Shown here: positions 16,729 to 40,934 of the stretch, piece by piece | How the letters are laid out: each line of letters begins with the position of its first letter | Numbering within the stretch: position 1 is the stretch's first letter | Program-made: the position numbers and the translations under genes | Notes under the pieces: model-generated | Seen by the model: the letters and a program-made list of their open reading frames with translations, nothing else | The model's database searches: none | Told to the model about the DNA's origin: nothing | DNA from: Saprospirales bacterium | GTDB lineage: Bacteria; Bacteroidota; Bacteroidia; Chitinophagales; Saprospiraceae | Length of the DNA: 40,934 nucleotides | Assembly (NCBI GenBank): GCA_002698985.1 | Contig: PAAY01000038.1 | Coordinates: forward strand, 1-40,934 | Direction of reading: 5' to 3'

Positions 16729-16800
16729 ATAATCCTCATAATCCTCATAATCCTAATAATCCTAATAATCCTAATAATCCTAATAATCCTAATAATCCTC
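16729..16800. repeat. Eight tandem copies of a 9-bp repeat (ATAATCCTM)
   Basis: Eight uninterrupted nonamers: ATAATCCTC twice, ATAATCCTA five times, ATAATCCTC once; a decayed ninth follows at 16801. The array lies 16 bases beyond the nusB stop codon. Confidence 0.9.
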
Positions 16801-16815
16801 AATAATCCATAAATC

Positions 16816-37596: not shown

Positions 37597-37669
37597 ATTG
37601 TTTCAAAGAGTTTCATCCGGGTAAGTTGAGCTTTGGCCCTCATACCCTTCGGTAAAAGTGAGCAGCAGA

Positions 37670-39067
37670 ATGTCCAAGCGATACGCAATAATAGATGTTG
37701 AAACGACAGGAGGAAGGGCGGTCAGGGATAAAATTACAGAGATCGCAATCGTGCTGCACGATGGTGAGCAGGTGCTGGACAGCTTCGAATCCCTTGTAAA
37801 CCCCGAATGTCCGATACCTTACGGGATCACTGAATTAACAGGTATCAGCAATGAGATGGTAGCCGATGCCCCAAGGTTCTACGAGATTGCGAAGCGAGTG
37901 GTGGAAATGACGGAAGGAGCTGTATTCGTGGCGCATAATGTTAGGTTTGATTACAGCTTTGTACAAGAGGAGTTCAAACGGCTTGGATTCACTTATACCC
38001 GCAAGCAGCTCTGCACCGTAAGGCTGGCCCGAAAAGCTTTTCCCGGATTGCGCTCATACAGCCTGGGCAACCTCATCAGAACCCTTAACCTCAATGCAGG
38101 TGCCCGCCACCGGGCCATGGGCGATACACTGGCCACGGTTGACCTTTTTGAACGGATCATGCGGCTCGAGAATGGTAAGTCCGAAGCTGGTGACCTTATC
38201 AATCTGGGAATCAAAGAGGCCTTGCTGCCCGGTGCTTTGAGCCTTGAAAAAATTCATTCGCTCCCACAAGAATGCGGCGTTTACTACTTCCACGACCAGT
38301 ACGGCCAGGTGGTTTATGTCGGGAAAAGCATCAACATTCAAAAACGGGTAGCCTCTCATTTTGCGAAGAAAACAGAAAAGGCAGGGAAGCTCCAAAAGCT
38401 GGTCCATGATATCAGCTACGAGGTCACCGGAAGTGAACTGATATCATTGCTGTACGAATCACATGAAATCAAACGGCTCCATCCCTCCATCAACCGGGCG
38501 CAGAAAAACCGCACTTTTCTATGGTCCATCTATGCGTATCAGAATCAGGCCGGTTACTGGTGTTTCGATGTTGCCCGCACTTCCACTTTGAAAAAAAAAC
38601 AGGTACCTGTTCTTTCTTCTTTTCCTTCGGCAATACAGGCCCGCTCCTGGCTCAAATCCATTCAGGCCGAACACGAACTGTGTCTGAAACTGTGCAACCT
38701 TGAAAAATCAGGTGGCCCCTGCTTTGATTATCACCTTCAGAAATGCCACGGAGCTTGTATCGGACAGGAGGATCCAAAGAACTACAATACCAGAGCCATG
38801 ATGGCCTTCGATCAATGGGACAAGAGCTATCCCCATGATAATTTCATCATCGTTGACCGGGGAAGAGAGGAGGGAGAATGCGCGCTGATTCTTGTTGAGG
38901 GAGGCAAATACCAGGGCTGGGGATTCGCCCGGGAAGAGCTTGTGAACGGCGGCAATCCGAACGTGGCCCGGGATGTCATCAGCAGATTTGAGGACAACCA
39001 GGAAATTAACAGGATCGTTCTGACCCAGCTCCGCAAGAACAAAAAACTAAAAGTTATTCCTTTCTGA
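37670..39067 (+). CDS. DnaQ-type 3'-5' exonuclease fused to a GIY-YIG (UvrC/Cho-like) nuclease
   Basis: A 465-residue cytoplasmic protein. Residues 1-170 are a DEDDh exonuclease like the epsilon subunit of DNA polymerase III: DVETTGG (Exo I), AHNVRFDYSF (Exo II), HRAMGDTLAT (Exo III). Residues about 200-285 are a GIY-YIG endonuclease domain like UvrC/Cho: CGVYYFHDQYGQVVYVGKSINI, then SLLYESHEIKRLHPSINR. The C-terminal part has the cysteine-rich GGPCFDYHLQKCHGACIG of UvrC relatives. The arrangement suggests a DNA-repair nuclease making an incision and trimming the end, which is inference. The open frame begins at a GTG (37658); the ATG at 37670 is preferred. Confidence 0.88.
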   Translation: MSKRYAIIDVETTGGRAVRDKITEIAIVLHDGEQVLDSFESLVNPECPIPYGITELTGISNEMVADAPRFYEIAKRVVEMTEGAVFVAHNVRFDYSFVQEEFKRLGFTYTRKQLCTVRLARKAFPGLRSYSLGNLIRTLNLNAGARHRAMGDTLATVDLFERIMRLENGKSEAGDLINLGIKEALLPGALSLEKIHSLPQECGVYYFHDQYGQVVYVGKSINIQKRVASHFAKKTEKAGKLQKLVHDISYEVTGSELISLLYESHEIKRLHPSINRAQKNRTFLWSIYAYQNQAGYWCFDVARTSTLKKKQVPVLSSFPSAIQARSWLKSIQAEHELCLKLCNLEKSGGPCFDYHLQKCHGACIGQEDPKNYNTRAMMAFDQWDKSYPHDNFIIVDRGREEGECALILVEGGKYQGWGFAREELVNGGNPNVARDVISRFEDNQEINRIVLTQLRKNKKLKVIPF

Positions 39068-40567: not shown

Positions 40568-40692
40568 TTTGAAAAATCAAGTAATGATTGGTGGTTTCCA
40601 AAGCTATTTCATTTCACTATTCAAAAGGAGTTCAACGACAAGAATTTGTGCGATAGCTATCCTCCTAAGGAGCCTTTTATTTCGTAGTGCAC

Positions 40693-40719
40693 AAAAAAAG
40701 CGAGCCACTCGACTCGCTT
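40693..40719 (-). terminator. Terminator hairpin of tRNA-like unit 1
   Basis: On the minus strand AAGCGAG (40719-40713) pairs with CTCGCTT (40704-40698), followed by more T. The loop differs from that of unit 2 while the stem is identical. Confidence 0.75.
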
Positions 40720-40724
40720 CTCCG

Positions 40725-40800
40725 TCGGGGTGGCAGGATTCGAACCTTACTGGCCCTCCCGAGTACTCGGGATGCGCTAACAGGACTGCGCTACAGGTAT
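40725..40800 (-). other. Degenerate tRNA-like element, unit 1
   Basis: On the minus strand: TA, D-arm GCGC-loop-GCGC, an anticodon-arm region replaced by the palindrome TCCCGAGTACTCGGGA (40757-40772), the T-loop GGTTCGAATCC and a 3' end CACCCCGA. The 5' acceptor side is ATACCTG, which cannot pair with CACCCCG beyond two bases, the T-stem is incomplete, and no CCA follows. It is not a functional standard tRNA. Confidence 0.65.
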
Positions 40801-40806
40801 GGACAC

Positions 40807-40833
40807 AAAAAAAGCGAGCCGTATGACTCGCTT
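40807..40833 (-). terminator. Terminator hairpin of tRNA-like unit 2
   Basis: The same AAGCGAG/CTCGCTT stem as in unit 1, with loop sequence changed at four positions, and the same T-run. Confidence 0.75.
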
Positions 40834-40838
40834 CTCCG

Positions 40839-40914
40839 TCGGGGTGGCAGGATTCGAACCTCAATGGCCCTCCCGAGTACTCGGGATGCGCTAACCGGAC
40901 TGCGCTACAGGTAT
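40839..40914 (-). other. Degenerate tRNA-like element, unit 2
   Basis: The same layout as unit 1, with D-arm GCGC-AGTCCGGTTA-GCGC, palindrome TCCCGAGTACTCGGGA at 40871-40886, T-loop GGTTCGAATCC and 3' end CACCCCGA. The acceptor halves again do not pair. Confidence 0.65.
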
Positions 40915-40934
40915 AGGCACAAAAAAAGCGAGCC

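Follow-up and report, generated by a model that had tools for sequence, protein, structure and literature searches.

A tandem array of tRNA-like elements at the end of a Saprospirales bacterium contig raised the question of what such elements are and how they arise. The window, the whole 40,934-nucleotide stretch analysed here, is an entire contig (PAAY01000038.1 of assembly GCA_002698985.1; here C44) that ends inside the array. A preliminary description, made from sequence alone, reported tRNA-like units repeating every 114 bases, with a 16-base perfect palindrome in place of the anticodon arm, acceptor halves that do not pair and a terminator for each unit. This observation is confirmed. Tandem Repeats Finder (TRF) identified a 114-base period at 40690-40934, with 2.1 copies, 93% matches and no indels. 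On the minus strand, each unit retains a tRNA D-arm and T-loop, a tRNA 3′ half and a terminator-like hairpin, whereas the 5′ acceptor strand does not match the 3′ strand. The sense strand is minus, so the 17 bases beyond the two units, previously taken for the start of a third repeat, are the tail of the preceding element. The features are as follows.

40690-40803, minus strand: unit 1, a hairpin-swapped copy of tRNA-Pro(UGG) plus terminator
40773-40794, minus strand: unit 1, D-arm part kept from tRNA-Pro
40757-40772, no strand assigned: unit 1, palindrome TCCCGAGTACTCGGGA in place of the 17-nt anticodon arm
40724-40756, minus strand: unit 1, tRNA-Pro 3′ half (variable region, T-arm, acceptor 3′ strand), with the T-stem 5′ strand partly decayed
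40693-40719, minus strand: unit 1, intrinsic-terminator-like hairpin and T-run, with the same stem as after the intact gene
40804-40917, minus strand: unit 2, as unit 1 (94% identical)
40887-40908, minus strand: unit 2, D-arm part
40871-40886, no strand assigned: unit 2, palindrome
40838-40870, minus strand: unit 2, tRNA-Pro 3′ half
40807-40833, minus strand: unit 2, terminator-like hairpin and T-run
40918-40934, minus strand: terminator end of the preceding element, cut by the contig end; it may be the terminator of the intact tRNA-Pro itself

We next sought the origin of the units in the same genome. A second contig, C56, ends with dnaA (Pfam Bac_DnaA), tRNA-Ser(GCT), two 85-base units carrying the same or nearly the same palindrome, an intact tRNA-Pro(TGG) with a terminator, and then the start of a further unit. 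The first 39 bases of C44 on the minus strand match the last 40 of C56 except for one T in a T-run. On C56 these bases are the terminator of the intact tRNA-Pro and the start of the next unit, so the two contigs may meet directly, with just two downstream units, or a gap may hold more. Gene order supports adjacency: an RNase_T/GIY-YIG protein at 37658-39067 of the window has similar-sized GIY-YIG-domain counterparts, in the same relative orientation, 3.8 and 5.1 kb from tRNA-Pro on single contigs of two relatives (G001 and G004), a comparison that rests on places and frame lengths rather than on alignment. The join is likely, not proven. Aligned with the intact gene plus terminator, each unit comprises the D-arm, the palindrome where the 17-base anticodon arm should be, the 3′ half and the same terminator stem; the 5′ acceptor strand is lost and the T-stem is partly broken. 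The blocks identical between units are those shared with the parent gene and its terminator, indicating sequence shared with the parent rather than a kept tRNA fold. The units are decayed, tandemly repeated copies of the adjacent tRNA-Pro(UGG) gene. An ordinary tRNA with a misread boundary was ruled out by this alignment and by ARAGORN, which calls no tRNA in the window. Rfam likewise returned no family at gathering score, either in the window or in 20 nuclease loci described below, and as a free RNA the unit does not fold clearly better than shuffles (z −1.28). Elsewhere in the window, TRF identified a tandem 9-base repeat, ATAATCCTA, at 16729-16808 (8.8 copies, 97% matches).

To determine whether the swap is confined to this locus, we examined relatives and then a broader sample. 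In 13 genomes of the genus, including this one, in which about 1-3 kb of the tRNA-Pro locus was read, 7 have such copies and 6 have none; the hairpin of one genome, G002, is decayed, and hits at nt 54-64, which fall in the tRNA-Ser T-arm, were dropped. All 7 genomes with copies have the anticodon stem CCTGC/GCAGG in tRNA-Pro(TGG), whereas 4 of the 6 without copies have CCTGT/ACAGG (loci L057, L058, L059 and L063), which may reflect phylogeny or target-site resistance. In another relative, G009, an isolated 24-base tRNA-Pro 3′ end lies about 15 kb from the intact gene (contig C161, 42286-42309), perhaps the scar of a larger integrated element. An exact pattern scan of one genome for each of 84,980 species returned 117 contigs with 149 matches; by title, 108 are Bacteroidota, 6 Fidelibacterota, 1 Chlorobiota and 2 unplaced. 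In an even sample of the phylum the exact form is rare, occurring in 3 of 395 genomes. Of the 117 contigs, 74 have a well-matching intact tRNA on the same strand within 1500 bp (49 Pro, 19 Val, 5 Lys, 1 Asn), 17 have only a weakly matching one and 26 have none, partly because contigs or the retrieved stretches end there. In a separate test of 74 Pro and Val loci, the local gene matches the copies better than the mean foreign gene in 70 and equals or beats every foreign gene in 55, so the copies arise, or are homogenized, in place. In one Saprospiraceae genome (locus L114, 7591-7875), four tandem hairpin-swapped tRNA-Pro copies, each called as a tRNA of undetermined type, precede an intact tRNA-Pro.

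We then analysed the hairpin itself. Its outer six pairs are fixed by the search, but the next pair is Watson-Crick in 119 of 128 cases against 58.3 in shuffles, and the one after in 42 of 63 against 27.4. The same palindrome family is dispersed in this genome, with 149 sites in 4.83 Mb (one per about 32 kb) against 7 for the reversed pattern, and TCCCGA palindromes also lie in what looks by eye like Rhs-type coding sequence of this genome (locus L054, about 600-660 and 2870-2900). Of 36 sites read, which were the first ones listed and not a random draw, 14 lie inside a further palindrome with an outer stem of at least 6, against a mean of 4.1 and a maximum of 9 in 200 shuffles. Across 40 relatives, the number of TCCCGA palindromes shows no clean link with tRNA-nuclease presence (0 in relative G017, 5 in G009 and 668 in relative G003). 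Among the 149 tRNA copies, 22 are still called as whole tRNAs by ARAGORN with only the arm swapped, suggesting that the swap precedes decay, although the minimum-energy fold of one of them is not a cloverleaf. Such calls occur, among others, at loci L101, L114, L116, L122, L127, L153, L178, L196 and L199, and some are of odd or undetermined type (SeC, Stop, Ile-TAT), making the copies an annotation trap.

The preliminary description had advised looking for nuclease genes beside the arrays, and this proved informative. A small GIY-YIG open reading frame (ORF) lies between the intact tRNA-Pro and a hairpin copy in relatives G006 (two copies, in a repeat of about 0.4 kb) and G011 and, in another family, in G045, whereas G017 has a broken one with a 43-aa frame. 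In the Saprospirales genome itself, the same layout occurs at tRNA-Arg(CCT), with palindromes in the D-loop and T-loop of the copy, and another small GIY-YIG ORF (locus L081) has tRNA-Met pieces on both sides. Starting from hairpins, 48 of 117 contigs have a same-strand GIY-YIG ORF within 900 bp, as do 32 of the 60 with at least 700 bp of sequence on both sides; 69 of the 117 and 28 of the 60 show none within that distance. A recount on both strands gives 47 contigs on the same strand and 0 on the opposite strand in 175 kb of near sequence, and a single ORF in 517 kb of far sequence. Starting from nucleases, 34 of 69 small GIY-YIG ORFs in this and related genomes have tRNA sequence within 400 bp on both sides, 13 on one side and 22 on none, against 0 of 99 control windows. 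These 69 ORFs come from 72 loci with 77 domain hits (71 after removal of duplicates, 2 of them large); small frames were chosen by eye from part of a longer list of matches, and the tRNA-Pro nucleases of G006, G011 and G017 were left out. Among copies beside nucleases, 39 of 56 have a stem of at least 6 in the exchanged segment, against 9.3% of 1320 random segments; this count includes all palindrome families, counts tandem copies more than once, contains a few artefact chains and covers 31 of the 69 loci. No such nuclease gene was found in the window array, where the only GIY-YIG match is the RNase_T/GIY-YIG protein 1.6 kb away.

The nucleases of the relatives' elements score over the cut-off for PF01541 and have invariant Y, G, R, H and E columns in 10 aligned proteins. 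Their nearest solved structures are UPF0213 proteins and SLX1 structure-specific endonucleases, followed by intron-associated endonuclease 1. In a tree of 66 nucleases, the 46 tRNA-labelled sequences lie in one 50-row group (SH-aLRT 98), and the labels, none included, need 24 changes against 42.8 when shuffled, a value as low in 0 of 200 shuffles. Nuclease lineages tend to follow tRNA type, strongly for Met, Arg(CCT) and Asp but without resolution for Val, Glu, Asn and Arg(TCT). The tree has few columns, 26 of its 63 inner branches are open, and its labels were set by hand; the G006 and G011 nucleases were added by hand, and locus L224, which had a tRNA hit on one side, was left as none. The remaining 16 nucleases form a separate group without tRNA within 400 bp (L226, L246, L249, L255, L258, L260, L261 and L267 among them); several, such as L226, L249, L255 and L258, sit among longer palindromic repeats on both sides, as if another hairpin family had its own nuclease.

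These observations suggest, with moderate confidence, that the window units are nuclease-less members of a class of small chromosomal elements in Bacteroidota that combine displaced tRNA copies with, in many cases, a stand-alone GIY-YIG nuclease gene at the tRNA gene, or else that the nuclease of this array lies in the unassembled gap between C56 and C44. On this reading the elements would work like free-standing GIY-YIG homing endonuclease elements targeted to tRNA genes. The sequence data establish that the copies resemble the local tRNA, that in most of those beside a nuclease an arm or loop (anticodon arm, D-loop, variable region or T-loop) is replaced or interrupted by a palindrome, that an intact gene usually lies beside them where the locus is complete, that small GIY-YIG ORFs are strongly concentrated at such places, and that nuclease lineages tend to be tRNA-specific. 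The mechanism is inferred: in this view the nuclease would cut the tRNA gene, repair would duplicate the locus so that one intact gene is kept and a spare displaced, and the spare would be sealed at the cut by a palindrome, making it resistant to further cutting. Cutting, duplication, movement into alleles that lack the element and the source of the hairpins all belong to this inferred part. A weakness is that the intact tRNA gene survives beside the nuclease, so simple self-protection by the hairpin does not explain why that gene is spared, although the paper on phage SegB notes that related enzymes cut their own donor allele poorly (PMC13096335). Our confidence is also tempered slightly by the broken nuclease of G017 and by the 43 of 117 hairpin contigs with no or only a weakly matching intact tRNA in the sequence examined.

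The closest analogue is phage T4/T6 SegB, a free-standing GIY-YIG homing endonuclease of the tRNA region that promotes tandem amplification of a tRNA-segB segment, and for which duplication of the locus by repair has been proposed (PMC13096335). SegB belongs to phage rather than to bacterial chromosomes, the main text of that paper mentions no hairpin, and the G006 protein, the one query used to probe a phage origin, has no match at E 0.001 in 50,697 phage records. The tyrT/rtT repeats of E. coli are tandem repeats downstream of a tRNA gene that contain its 3′ end, but they are not known to show an arm swap or to carry a nuclease gene. Integrative elements and phages that insert in tRNA genes likewise sit at a tRNA gene, keep one intact copy and leave a partial one (PMC9897764); here, by contrast, there is a short GIY-YIG ORF, copies lie on either side of the intact gene, and an arm is replaced by a hairpin. 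Repetitive hairpin-forming elements of mitochondrial DNA (PMC2800124) are short dispersed palindromes with conserved stems and variable loops. Bacterial REP/RAYT and Rickettsia palindromic elements share these features. In the present elements the palindromes replace tRNA arms in displaced copies and are found with a GIY-YIG gene. The hairpin-swapped copies are the new part: our searches of the open-access literature, which do not extend to papers outside it or below the top-ranked results, showed no report of GIY-YIG genes with hairpin-swapped tRNA copies in Bacteroidota.

We considered whether the units could instead be ordinary tandem tRNA pseudogenes, made by slippage or unequal crossing-over and later hit at random by dispersed palindromes, with the nuclease genes as passengers. 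The dispersal of the palindrome family, the high identity of the tandem units and the commonness of tRNA fragments left by integrating elements (PMC9897764) are compatible with this, but we consider it unlikely. At the observed palindrome density, chance hits in 39 of 56 copies are improbable, the palindrome in most tRNA-Pro copies sits at the same place across genera (after nt 27-30 and before nt 44-46), 22 of 149 copies are still called as whole tRNAs, and nuclease ORFs are concentrated at these sites on the same strand only. It is also unlikely that the palindromes are REP sequences moved by RAYT (Y1) transposases that favour tRNA copies. Y1_Tnp matches occur in 33 of 40 relatives, one in the own genome, and the nesting of palindromes within palindromes is what a hairpin-seeking enzyme would give; yet none of 14 Y1 loci examined, out of over 100 listed places, carries TCCCGA..TCGGGA within roughly 2 to 7 kb, and several, including the own-genome one, have other palindromes on both sides that differ from genome to genome (L291, L293, L295, L298, L301 and L303).

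The preliminary description's interpretation was partly supported: the units do derive from a tRNA and the place is a hot spot for duplication or insertion, but selection for a small structured RNA or a tRNA-mimic decoy has little support. Covariation of the hairpin pairs, the units' own terminators and the ARAGORN calls elsewhere could be read in its favour. However, covariation is expected of any mobile palindrome, acceptor and T-stem pairing are broken in the window units, many copies at relatives' tRNA-Pro loci have lost recognizable 5′ or 3′ parts, and the fold is not clearly better than shuffles, leaving this reading improbable. Assembly duplication, suggested by the break of the assembly at the array, is very unlikely, as the units differ from each other, both C56 and C44 carry units, and assemblies of two relatives (G010 and G011) show the same kind of arrangement inside contigs, as does G006, albeit with a run of N in it. 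A more speculative possibility, which we regard as unlikely but do not exclude, is a minimal DNA mobility system in which an SLX1/UPF0213-like GIY-YIG nuclease recognizes hairpins that DNA can form, both tRNA-gene arms and dispersed palindromes, and exchanges or inserts hairpin arms there. Such a system would both create hairpin-swapped tRNA copies and spread palindromes through Bacteroidota genomes without a transposase.

Small stand-alone GIY-YIG frames (70-220 aa) appear in at least 25 of 40 related genomes and, to our knowledge, have no assigned role. Our data give about two thirds of those examined (47 of 69) an address, tRNA genes, and a likely way of life as tRNA-specific homing elements. 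They also explain a class of false tRNA calls, and offer a natural case for studying how a selfish nuclease lives beside essential genes and how short palindromes spread.
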